DNA of 64,000 nt, taken from Halolamina litorea. GTDB lineage: Archaea > Halobacteriota > Halobacteria > Halobacteriales > Haloferacaceae. Location: NCBI RefSeq assembly GCF_026616205.1, contig NZ_JANHGR010000001.1, positions 1,364,001 to 1,428,000 of the forward strand, written 5' to 3'. Each line of letters opens with the position of its first letter. Within the stretch, counting starts at the first letter, position 1. This document shows positions 50,712 through 55,297 of this stretch, one piece after another. The notes beneath the pieces were generated by a model that made no database searches, had not been told where the DNA came from, and was given only the letters and a program-made list of their open reading frames with translations. Both the position numbers and the translations under genes were made by a program.

Positions 50712-52016
50712 TCAGGCGTTCGTGACCGTCGCGCCGAGGTCGTCGAACACCGTCCAGAAGTCCGGGAACGATACGTCGACGTGTTCGGCGTCGCTGATGG
50801 TCGTCGTCCCCTCGGCGACGAGGCCGGCGACGGCCAGTGCCATGGCGATCCGGTGGTCGCCGCGACCGTCGACTTCCGCGCCGACGAGGTCGCTCTCGCC
50901 GCCGTGGACGGTGAGCGTGTCCTGCTCTTCGGTGACCTCGGCGCCGAGCTTCCCCAGCTCCTCGGCCATAGCTGTCACGCGGTCGGTCTCCTTCAGCCGC
51001 ACGTGCTCACAGTTGACGATCCGAGTGTCCCCATCGGCGACGGCGCCGACCGCGGCGATGGTGGGGAGGAGGTCCGGGGTGTCGGCCACGTCGACCTCGA
51101 TCCCGGAGAGGTCGCCACCGGCGGAACGGAGTTCACCGGCGTCCTCGTCCCAGTCGATCTCGGCTCCCATTCGGTCGAGGATCTCGACGATGGCCGTGTC
51201 GCCCTGCGCGCTCGGGTGGGCACCCTCGACGAGGACGCCCTCGCCACCCTCGTCGGCGGCGACGGCGCCCGCGGCGGCGAGGTAGGAGATCGAGGAGAAG
51301 TCGCCGGGGACGCTGTAGCTGCCGTCTTCCGGGCTGTACTGCTGGCCGCCGGGGACCCGAAAGCCCGAATCGGTGTGCTCGGCGTCGACGCCGAACGCCT
51401 GCAGCACTTCGAGCGTTATCTCGACGTACGGCGCTGACTTGAGTTCGGTTTCGAGGTCGATCGCGATCCCCTCCTCGGTGACAGCGCCGGCCATCAGCAG
51501 CGCGGTGATGAACTGTGAGGACACGTCGCCGGGCATCGAGACGGTGCCGCCGGGGAGCGCGTCGCCGACGACGAGCGGCGCTTGCCCGTTCCGTCGGGTG
51601 CTCTCGGCCCGGCCACCGAGGTCCTCGATGGCGTCGAGCAGCGGGCCGTGGGGGCGCGACCGGAGCGAGTCGTCGCCGGTGAGCACCGTCAGCCCGTCGG
51701 CGAGCGCGCCCGCGGCGGTGACCAGCCGCGTCGTCGTGCCGGAGTTCTCGCAGTTGATCACGTCGACGGGCACGTCAGGGCGCCCGCCGAACCCCTCGAC
51801 GCGGAGGGTGCCGATGTCGAGGCGCGAGCGGTCGACTTTCCCGCCGAACGCCGAGACCGCGCGCATCGTCCCCCGGGTGTCGGCGCTGACCAGCGGGTCC
51901 TCGACGGTGGCGTCCTCAGCGTAGCCCGCGGCGAGGATGGCTCGGTGGGTGTAGCTCTTCGACGGCGGCGCGCGGCAGCGTCCGGCGACCCGGGAGCGCG
52001 AGACGTGTTTCTTCAT
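50712..52016 (-). CDS. aroA: 3-phosphoshikimate 1-carboxyvinyltransferase (EPSP synthase)
   Basis: A 434-residue enzyme that transfers the enolpyruvyl group from PEP to shikimate 3-phosphate. Substrate-binding [55 protein letters not shown] and RLKETDR motifs are all present. The start is ATG 52016 ([12 protein letters not shown]); the long upstream frame is a shadow of the divergent gene's leader. Same strand as aroC, 3 kb away, with the phosphodiesterase between. Confidence 0.96.
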
Positions 52017-52116: not shown

Positions 52117-53877
52117 ATGTCGATGGCCAACTACAGCCTCTACGACCGCGAGGAGCCCGACCTCTCAGGGTTCGAGCGAGAACTGTACGACACCGTGAAC
52201 GCCGACGCCCCGTGGGCGCTGGTCGAGCGCTTCGCGGACTTAGAACGGGTTTCCGGCAGCGACGAGGAGGTCGAAGCGGCCGAGTACGTCACCGATCGAC
52301 TCGCCGACTTCGGCGTCAGCCACGAGCGCTACGACCCCGAACTCTACCTCTCGATTCCCGGGAACGCATCGCTCGCGGCCGCCGGCGAGTCCTTCGACGC
52401 CGTCAAGACCGTCTCCTTCGGCGGCGGGAAGGCCGCGGGCGAGATGGTGGACTTCGCCACCGGTGAGGCGAGCGTCGACGACCTGCTCTCGACGGACCTC
52501 GGAGAGGTCGGCGACATGACGGGGAAGGTCGCGGTCCTCGACGGGCTACTCCCGATCGAAGCGATCGGCGAACTGGACGAGGCTGGCGTCGAAGGCGTGG
52601 TTGTCGTCCACCCCCACGAGCGCGAACCCCACGAGGGGATCGCGACGCCGATCTGGGGCGGCGCGCCCGAGCCGGGAGAAGAGCACCGTATTCCGGACGT
52701 CCCCGTCGTCGTCGCCGCCGCACCCGTCGGCGAACGACTGCGTGAACACGGCGAGGGGACCTCGATCGCGCTCACCGCCGAGACGGAGACGGGCTGGTTC
52801 GACTGCCCGGTGGTCGAGGCCCGGATCGACGCCGGCGCCGACGACGCCGCGGACGACGACTTCGTGCTCGTCCACGGCCACTACGACTCCTGGCACGTCG
52901 GCATCGCCGACAACGCGACGGGCGACGCGGCGCTGCTCGAACTCGCTCGCGTCTTCGAGGAACACGCCGACGAACTCTCGCGGGACGTCCGGATCTGCTG
53001 GTGGCCGGGCCACTCCACCGGGCGCTACGCCGGGTCGACGTGGTACGCCGAACAGTTCGGCCTCGATATCGCCGACAACTGCGTGGCGCAAGTGAACGTC
53101 GACTCCCCGGGCGCCGTCGACGCCACCGAGTTCGAGGACATGCTCTGCTGGATGCCCGAGGCCGACGAACTGGCCCGGAACGCCGTCGCCGACGTGAGCG
53201 GGAAGGACGCCACCGAGGTCCGACCGCCACGCGCGGGCGACTACTCGTTCAACAACCTCGGGGTCACGGGCTGCTTGATGCTCTCCTCGAACATCCCCAC
53301 CGACGTCCGCGAGGAGCGCGGTTACCACGCCGTCGGCGGCTGTGGCGGCCACAGCAACGCGTGGCACCTGAGCACCGACACCCTCGACAAGGCCGACCCG
53401 GACGTGCTCGTTCGGGACATCCGGATCTACGCCACGATCGTCGCCCGACTGGCCCGCGAGGACGTGCTCCCGCTCGACTTCCGACACACGCTCGAACAGC
53501 ACCGAGAGACCGTACAGGAGTACGATGCCGCCGCTGGCGAGGCGTTCGACCTCTCCGCCGTCAGCGATCGACTCGCCGACCTCGAAAACGTCACCCACGC
53601 GTACTACGACCGGATCGACGCCGGCGAAATCGATGCCGACGCCGCGAACGAAGCGATCCTCGGCCTCTCACGAGCGCTCGTCCGCGTGGACTACACCACG
53701 GAAGGCCAGTTCGAGCAGGACCCGGCGACCGACCGCCCCTCCTACCCAGGGCTCGCCGCCGCCGCGGAGCTGGACGACCTCGACGCCGACGAGCGGAAGA
53801 AGCAGGTAGTCGCCCTCCGCCGACAGCGGAACCGGGCCGTCACGCTACTGGACGAGGCGTTCGACGCGCTCCCGTAG
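52117..53877 (+). CDS. M28-like metallopeptidase with PA domain and atypical active site
   Basis: A 586-residue cytosolic protein of the M28 aminopeptidase superfamily. Residues ~100-225 are a protease-associated (PA) insert. Zinc-ligand positions are H255 and D257 (VHGHYDS), D265 (IADNATGD), D329 (NVDSPG) and H412 (CGGHSNAWH). At the place where M28 enzymes have a catalytic Glu pair (GAEE), this protein reads [17 protein letters not shown] with His299-Ser300. It thus has most metal ligands but not the usual catalytic base. Substrate unknown; ATG 52117 chosen, divergent from aroA. Confidence 0.83.
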
Positions 53878-54031: not shown

Positions 54032-55297
54032 CTACTCCTCGGCGGCGTCGACGCCCGCCACGTCGGCCATCGCACCGGCCAGCACCTGCGCCGCGTTCGC
54101 GCAGTCAGCCCAGTTGGTCCACTCCCGGGGGTTGTGGCTGATGCCGTCCTGTGAGGGCGCGAACAGCAGCGCAGCCTCGGTTACGTCTGCGACGTGCATC
54201 GTGTCGTGGGCGGCGCCGGAGTGAAGGTCCATCGTCCCGATGCCGGCCGCGTCGCCCGCACGGTGGGCGGCGGCGCGGAGCGATTCGCTCATCGGCGTCG
54301 GTTCGAGATCGAACGGCCGCGAGAAGCTCGTTTCGACACCGCGGTCGGCCTCGACGATGGCGAGGCTCGATCGAGTCGCCTCGACAATGGTCTGCATCGA
54401 CTGGTACTCGACGTCCCGGATGTCGACGCCGAACTCGACCTTTCCGGGGACGACGTTGGTCGCGTTGGGCGACACCGAGAGCGAGCCGACCGTCCCGACC
54501 GCGGTCTCGCTCTCCTCGGCGACCACGTCGTTGGCGGCGGCCTCCACGTCGAGGACCACCTCCGAGGTCGCGGCAAGCGCGTCGGTTCGCTCGTCCATCG
54601 GCGTCGCCCCGGCGTGGTTCGCTTCGCCGAGGATCTCCGCCTCGCAGTGGGTGATGCCCGTGATCGTCGTGACGACGCCGACCGGGACGTTCTCGCGCTC
54701 CAGCCGGGTGTCCTGCTCAATGTGGAGTTCGTACCACGCCTCCCAGTTGCCCGCGTCGAGTCGCCCCTCGCCGCGGAAGCCGATCCGTTCGAGCGACTCT
54801 TCGAGGCTGACCCCCTCGTCGTCCTCGATGGCGAGCGCCTCATCGACCGTGCGCTCCCCGACGGCCACCGAGGAGCCGAGCAGCCCCTCCGAGAATCGCT
54901 GTCCCTCCTCCTCAGTGAAGGAGACGACGACGAGCGGCCGCGCCGGCTCGACGCCGGCGTCCTGCATCGCTCGAACGGCCTCCAGCGCGGCGTAGACCCC
55001 GAGCGGGCCGTCGAAGATCCCGCCCTCCGGGACCGAGTCGACGTGGCTCCCAGCAGCAATCGGGGCGGCGTCGGGGTCCGCGGAGTCAGGGGTCCACGTG
55101 CCGGCGATGTTGCCGACGGCGTCGACAGTCACGTCGAGTCCCGCGTCCTCCATCCGTTCGACGAGCGTCTCCCGGGCGGCGCGGTTCGCGTCGGTGCCGG
55201 TCAGCACTGTCCGGCCGCGTCCTTCCTCGACCTCGATCTCACCGTGTTCGGCGTTCGTCTCGATGTCCGCCCGGAGGCGATCGGCGTCGACGTGCAT
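54032..55297 (-). CDS. M20-type Zn amidohydrolase (N-carbamoyl-L-amino acid hydrolase/allantoate amidohydrolase-like)
   Basis: A 421-residue di-metal amidohydrolase of the HyuC/AllC branch. The ligands are AAGSHVDSVPEGGIFDGPLGV (His/Asp plus bridging Asp), FTEEEGQRF (Glu pair) and ELHIEQ (His). The C-terminal GAAHDTMHVADV histidine is also visible. Enzymes of this type cleave N-carbamoyl amino acids or allantoate. No other purine or hydantoin catabolic gene lies beside it, so the substrate remains open. Possibly monocistronic. Confidence 0.9.
   Translation of the reverse strand: MHVDADRLRADIETNAEHGEIEVEEGRGRTVLTGTDANRAARETLVERMEDAGLDVTVDAVGNIAGTWTPDSADPDAAPIAAGSHVDSVPEGGIFDGPLGVYAALEAVRAMQDAGVEPARPLVVVSFTEEEGQRFSEGLLGSSVAVGERTVDEALAIEDDEGVSLEESLERIGFRGEGRLDAGNWEAWYELHIEQDTRLERENVPVGVVTTITGITHCEAEILGEANHAGATPMDERTDALAATSEVVLDVEAAANDVVAEESETAVGTVGSLSVSPNATNVVPGKVEFGVDIRDVEYQSMQTIVEATRSSLAIVEADRGVETSFSRPFDLEPTPMSESLRAAAHRAGDAAGIGTMDLHSGAAHDTMHVADVTEAALLFAPSQDGISHNPREWTNWADCANAAQVLAGAMADVAGVDAAEE

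Follow-up and report, generated by a model that had tools for sequence, protein, structure and literature searches.

A widespread branch of M28-like proteins with His-Ser or His-Glu at the position of the catalytic Glu pair

The stretch of Halolamina litorea DNA analysed here (64,000 nucleotides, hereafter the window) encodes a protein, P0001, that belongs to a widespread and apparently unstudied branch of the M28 family in which the Glu-Glu pair of the active site has given way to His-Ser or, in a few members, to His-Glu. Within a set of 131 family sequences that includes P0001, 128 read His-Ser, three read His-Glu and none reads Glu-Glu. Four metal-ligand positions and the histidine itself are conserved broadly across this set, and P0001 shows dN/dS values of 0.33-0.43 against four close relatives, which argues for a working site. 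Rather than the product of a dead gene, P0001 is probably an active enzyme whose chemistry has changed and which acts in the breakdown of small molecules or peptides. A search of open-licence papers found nothing about a His-Ser or His-Glu branch of M28, and earlier work may exist; plasmid records name proteins of this family “M28 family peptidase.”

The gene and its predicted architecture

The gene (Table 1) is free of internal stops, and its product of 586 residues is strongly acidic, with 121 Asp and Glu against 43 Lys and Arg. The initial annotation, which had described a long, intact and acidic frame, was thus accurate on this point. Such acidity, together with a third-position GC of 89%, is usual for haloarchaea, and the antisense open reading frames that cross the gene (e.g., 52546-53598 on the minus strand) tend to arise from third-position GC of this order. 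The longest open reading frame begins at an ATG at 52015, the start at 52117 being plausible but unproven, and inspection by eye revealed no obvious signal peptide. Pfam assigns P0001 to M28 (PF04389) with 54.5 bits against a gathering cut-off of 21.3, and the same model matched all 77 family members compared at E <= 0.01. P0001 reached the cut-off of no NCBIfam model.

Table 1. Features of the P0001 gene and its neighbour, in window positions; residue counts refer to the 131-sequence family set unless stated otherwise.
Feature	Position	Strand	Basis
M28-like gene, His-Ser replacing Glu-Glu, 586 aa (P0001)	52117..53877	+	ORF and Pfam
Approximate apical (PA-like) region, residues ~100-230, putative limits	52414..52806	+	PA match of relatives; fold match over model residues 15..586
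H172, apical region, His in 125/131	52630..52632	+	
H255, metal ligand position, GCPII His377, 131/131	52879..52881	+	alignment
D265, bridging metal ligand position, GCPII Asp387, 131/131	52909..52911	+	alignment
Ten-residue segment, residues 298-307, replacing the Glu-Glu loop	53008..53037	+	profile alignments
H299, at catalytic-base Glu position, GCPII Glu424, 131/131	53011..53013	+	two profile alignments
S300, at metal-ligand Glu position, GCPII Glu425; Ser 128/131, Glu 3/131	53014..53016	+	
R303, in 128/128 His-Ser members and 0/7 His-Glu members	53023..53025	+	
D329, metal ligand position, GCPII Asp453, 131/131	53101..53103	+	hhalign
D375, invariant Asp, 131/131, one column off a conserved M28 Asp	53239..53241	+	hhalign
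H417, late His ligand position, GCPII His553, 130/131	53365..53367	+	hhalign; lacking only in a frameshifted copy (L022)
C-terminal helical region, residues 455-586, predicted fold like the TfR/GCPII helical domain	53479..53874	+	model helices 455-583; VIA alignment to 586
Convergent neighbour, M20 hydantoinase/carbamoylase-family amidase	54032..55297	-	TIGR01879, 374.2 bits, cut-off 204

Glutamate carboxypeptidase II (GCPII, or PSMA), whose subfamily is named M28B, and transferrin receptor 1 (TfR), which is not known to have a standard M28 site, share the predicted fold of P0001. The AlphaFold2 model of P0001 (pLDDT 92.0, pTM 0.92) aligned by VIA with transferrin receptor 1 (7zqs_B) over 525 residues at 3.0 A (Z 35.5) and with GCPII (9hlw) over 532 residues at 2.8 A (Z 34.5, 18% identity). 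Since these matches begin at residue 15 or 18 and extend to residue 586, the predicted fold takes in the apical and helical domains, and the model gives P0001 the whole GCPII/TfR architecture of protease, apical and C-terminal helical domains. The corresponding Pfam families are less evenly represented: PF02225 (PA) was matched in 63 of the 77 family members and is not listed for P0001 itself, and TFR_dimer (PF04253) is absent from the P0001 matches at E <= 1 and has no match in its genome, while a Glu-Glu protein of genome G309 has it. The M28 aminopeptidases BSAP and that of Aneurinibacillus AM-1 also matched the model (6hc6, 382 residues, Z 34.9; 2ek8, 385 residues, Z 33.9), but they are shorter (407-412 residues) and 2ek8 retains Glu-Glu.

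P0001 resembles GCPII and GCPIII in this three-part architecture and keeps the GCPII His377, Asp387, Asp453 and His553 positions; it differs in reading His for Glu424 and Ser for Glu425, and in a loop that is longer by one residue. The ligands of GCPII and the function of Glu424 are taken from one report (PMC8538779), according to which the E424A mutant loses activity wholly and the E424Q mutant shows a Vmax only 8-fold lower. The earlier statement that P0001 cannot be a canonical aminopeptidase was reasonable in substance, and was too firm in view of the carboxypeptidase II/TfR architecture and of the activity that GCPII E424Q is reported to keep (PMC8538779).

Conservation, distribution and tree

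The register of the altered loop was the same by two routes. A profile of 77 family sequences aligned with PDB sequences placed the family segment, a Trp followed by 11 residues, on the glutamate carboxypeptidase stretch W-D-A-E-E-F-G-L-L-G-S, and hhalign against seven Glu-Glu M28 proteins returned the same register with a probability of 99.9. Because both profile alignments agree, H299 takes the place of the base, GCPII Glu424, and S300 that of the ligand Glu425, as the initial annotation had read the site; its further observation that H255, D265, D329 and a late His are in place likewise stands, the late His being H417.

The altered motif is a trait of the family and not a chance occurrence or a lone mutant, given the constancy of H299 and the near-constancy of S300 across the 131 sequences. 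The wider alignment that the initial annotation had proposed shows the motif to be common to the branch, including six paralogs in the P0001 genome that all read W-P-[GA]-H-S; this genome also encodes Glu-Glu M28 proteins (L095 and L096). N266 is as invariant as H299, H255, D265, D329 and D375, and E275 and D421 are nearly so in a set of 126 sequences. His-Ser proteins have therefore lost one of the five M28 metal-ligand positions and kept four. The alignments grew from 111 sequences, drawn from 123 open reading frames after removal of duplicates and of those under 480 residues, to the 131-sequence set, from which 12 open reading frames under 400 residues and two near-copies had been removed. 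Two peculiarities may be recorded: position 257, the Asp of H-x-D, is Cys in three of the 131 (L030, plus strand, end 5658; L047, minus strand; and L092), and a family copy of Halolamina pelagica (L022:8001-9742) is broken, with seven stops in the matched frame.

Seven His-Glu members are known, comprising the three of the 131-sequence set and four orthologs of the L117 protein; the latter came from a search of 289 genomes in which eight matched. A search for further His-Glu proteins among 229 genomes of one bacterial class matched only the genome on which it was centred. The three His-Glu proteins of the 131-sequence set retain all five M28 metal-ligand positions. The His-Glu copies (L092:8962-10689, L117:7392-9161, L152:8001-9779 and L153-L156) are all without R303. 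We considered R303 as a compensation for the lost Glu, the residue being absent from 7/7 His-Glu and present in 128/128 His-Ser proteins, a coupling with Ser300 that rests on few events since His-Glu proteins occupy only two places in the tree, one of them weakly supported.

Record titles of the family include Halobacteria, a Caldarchaeum, Bacillus, Chloroflexi, Gemmatimonadetes, Acidobacteria, Armatimonadetes, Alphaproteobacteria, a betaproteobacterium and Trueperaceae. In haloarchaea the distribution is patchy: of 292 genomes of the class, 18 carry the family at E <= 1e-40. Because this survey scored four candidates in each genome, its copy numbers are lower bounds. A tree was built from 41 catalytic domains: 28 of the 131 (P0001, the three His-Glu proteins and others with less than 50% identity to those already picked), the four further His-Glu proteins and nine Glu-Glu proteins. 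Its 32 His-bearing proteins formed one clade (100/99) apart from the nine Glu-Glu M28 proteins, the nearest of which were the GCPII-like L166 and L183. Six His-Glu proteins grouped together (99/92), and the position of the Burkholderia His-Glu protein, amid His-Ser proteins, was weakly supported. This topology is compatible with a single gain of H299 followed by Glu-to-Ser changes, on a tree that requires two label changes each for His-Ser and His-Glu, contains several long branches and is rooted at its midpoint only. The suggestion that P0001 might represent a distinct branch is accordingly upheld by the clade and by conservation of the motif over many bacterial and archaeal groups, and the accompanying suggestion of another chemistry is plausible.

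Gene neighbourhoods of the family

The surroundings of the best 78 of at least 362 family loci were compared with 40 control windows from seven genomes. Being made up of best matches only, the 78-locus sample leans toward close relatives, and the p values that follow serve as guides only, since the labels were picked from the relatives' own neighbours and some loci share a genome. Among these best 78 of at least 362 loci, an Opp-like permease was found at 39 (3/40 controls), a substrate-binding protein at 34 (4/40), an ATPase at 33 (6/40) and an Asp/Glu/hydantoin-family racemase at 30 (0/40, p 3.6e-7). In the same sample, a Zn-binding dehydrogenase was found at 19 loci and IclR at 14, each against 0/40 with the search size fixed (20 and 15 otherwise), followed by M20 (12/78 vs. 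0/40), HyuA (9/78 vs. 1/40; HyuA/HyuB at 9/78), M19 (5/78 vs. 0/40) and an amidase (4/78 vs. 1/40). Haloarchaea contribute 26 of the 40 controls and 14 of the 78 family loci; as the controls lean haloarchaeal and the family loci do not, the comparison was split by group. The racemase then stood at 10/14 haloarchaeal family loci against 0/26 controls (p 1.2e-6) and at 20/64 of the rest against 0/14 (p 0.0099), and the permease at 9/14 against 2/26 and at 30/64 against 1/14. Outside haloarchaea, dehydrogenase, IclR, M20 and HyuA, each taken by itself, were not significantly more frequent than in controls (p 0.06-0.43).

Of the 32 racemase frames at the same best 78 of at least 362 loci, 20 are less than 200 bp away from an M28 gene, 15 of them on its strand; for two of the 20, as stop-to-stop frames, the overlap with the M28 gene exceeds 200 bp. 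Both Cys positions of the racemase are Cys in 31 of the 32 frames, with missing ones belonging to frames cut short, and the closest solved relative of one racemase from the P0001 genome is the allantoin racemase 5lfd (3.3e-26). With their hydantoin-family racemase, M20 amidohydrolases and HyuA/HyuB, the neighbourhoods of P0001 relatives resemble hydantoin and allantoin utilisation sets; our search of open-licence papers found none linking an M28-type enzyme to such genes. His-Glu members take part in this pattern, those in L117 and L152 being adjoined by racemase, M20 and transporter genes. A mutual exclusion of racemase and HyuA (none of nine hyuA loci among the best 78 of at least 362 with a racemase, p 0.011) was dropped as a rule because the annotated plasmid regions L088 and L117 contain both kinds of gene, hydantoinase and racemase. 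In L044, L051, L056, L059 and L062, two family genes form a tandem pair on the same strand, less than 400 bp apart, and such pairs could correspond to a heterodimer.

The P0001 gene itself lies outside any ABC transporter/racemase cluster. It is flanked by a divergent gene, aroA by eye, and by the convergent M20 gene of the carbamoylase family, the only neighbour from the hydantoin set and not a conserved one. The M20 gene was not found beside the close relatives L107-L110; being convergent as well, it was rejected as an operon partner of P0001. The M20 product (54032-55297, minus strand) also scores just above the “allantoate amidohydrolase” subfamily cut-off (400.6 vs. 399). Close relatives in L108 and L110 sit within ABC/racemase clusters, and none of the labelled neighbours was found beside those in L107 and L109. 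With P0001 outside a cluster and its close relatives mixed, the context argument is borrowed from relatives. Elsewhere in the P0001 genome, G000:C1:1166000-1198000 (L007, L008) is a catabolic region with two Opp-type transporters, four His-Ser M28 paralogs, two Asp/Glu racemases, and M19, amidase, enolase-superfamily and luciferase-like genes. Both PF01177 racemases of the genome and two of its three M19 genes (one about 14 kb out) fall within this paralog region.

Chemistry of the altered site

How might a site without its Glu-Glu dyad operate? We favor, at about even chances, an active metal-dependent amide hydrolase that uses His as its base and serves uptake-linked catabolism. Metal would still be bound through H255, D265, D329 and H417. 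His299, at the former general-base site, would most likely activate the metal-bound water, and Ser300, by removing the Glu ligand of the second metal, would leave a site with one metal or a weak pair of metals. In the His-Glu relatives the five ligand positions are intact and only the base differs, which makes a His base the simplest interpretation, with the His-Ser proteins then losing one ligand. The reaction would be hydrolysis of an amide bond in a small substrate, with a short or D-configured peptide, an N-acyl or N-carbamoyl amino acid, or a hydantoin-like ring as candidates. In relatives, the Opp-type transporter may import the substrate, and the hydantoin-family racemase and M20 amidohydrolases may co-process it. 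Against the favored reading stands GCPII E424A, which is reported to lose all activity (PMC8538779) and shows that replacing the base can kill an enzyme. A bolder version, which we think rather unlikely, envisages a large unrecognised archaeal and bacterial family in which M28 Glu-Glu became His-(Glu/Ser), yielding one-metal amidohydrolases with a His base that open hydantoin-like rings or cleave D-configured peptides beside a hydantoin-type racemase.

The transferrin receptor is the pseudoenzyme counterpart on the GCPII fold, and P0001 could by analogy bind a substrate or act in regulation, and might pair through its helical domain with a tandem paralog. The loss of both glutamates, the close match of the model to the transferrin receptor and the five tandem pairs with gaps below 400 bp (among the best 78 of at least 362 loci) fit such a role. 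Drift is to be expected in a dead site, yet H299 and the remaining metal-ligand positions are kept in essentially all 131 sequences from many groups; unlike the transferrin receptor, this is a prokaryotic family in which the other metal-ligand positions are invariant and which often occurs in catabolic clusters. This conservation and the catabolic context of relatives weaken the pseudoenzyme possibility raised in the initial annotation, and we regard it as unlikely.

We consider improbable, too, a metal enzyme of non-hydrolytic chemistry, such as an isomerisation, cyclisation or lyase step, with His299 as an acid/base proton shuttle. Glutaminyl cyclase, whose metal site is likewise reduced, is the non-hydrolytic precedent on the M28 fold, with the reverse pattern: it keeps the Glu pair and has lost other ligands, whereas the P0001 family loses the pair and retains the others. 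Replacement of the base and one ligand in an otherwise preserved site, and the association with racemases, speak for such chemistry, while the M20, M19 and amidase genes of some clusters fit stepwise hydrolysis, an argument limited by the rarity of M19 and amidase overall (5 and 4 of the best 78 of at least 362 loci).

That P0001 remains a metal-dependent M28 peptidase with another carboxylate as base is a long shot. The best candidate would be D375, invariant and one column from a conserved M28 Asp, with E275 and D421 nearly invariant too; the latter two, however, have acidic counterparts in the aligned Glu-Glu M28 proteins and so are not new, and the altered loop itself holds no acid. Least credible, and very unlikely in our view, is a serine hydrolase in which S300 forms an acyl-enzyme: the [GA]-H-S-x-G motif, found in 127 of the 131 sequences and placed by the model between strand 290-296 and helix 305-321, resembles the nucleophile motif of alpha/beta hydrolases, but three of the 131 and four further members have Glu instead of Ser with unchanged metal-ligand positions.

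If its members are active, the family would show that a di-metal peptidase can swap its general base and one ligand and yet stay an enzyme, and the His-Glu proteins might then represent an intermediate preserved in nature. An inactive family would instead parallel, among prokaryotes, the transferrin-receptor pseudoenzymes. In both cases, the name “M28 family peptidase” is doubtful for proteins of which none in 131 keeps Glu-Glu, and the conserved clusters of the relatives offer a testable lead to the substrate.
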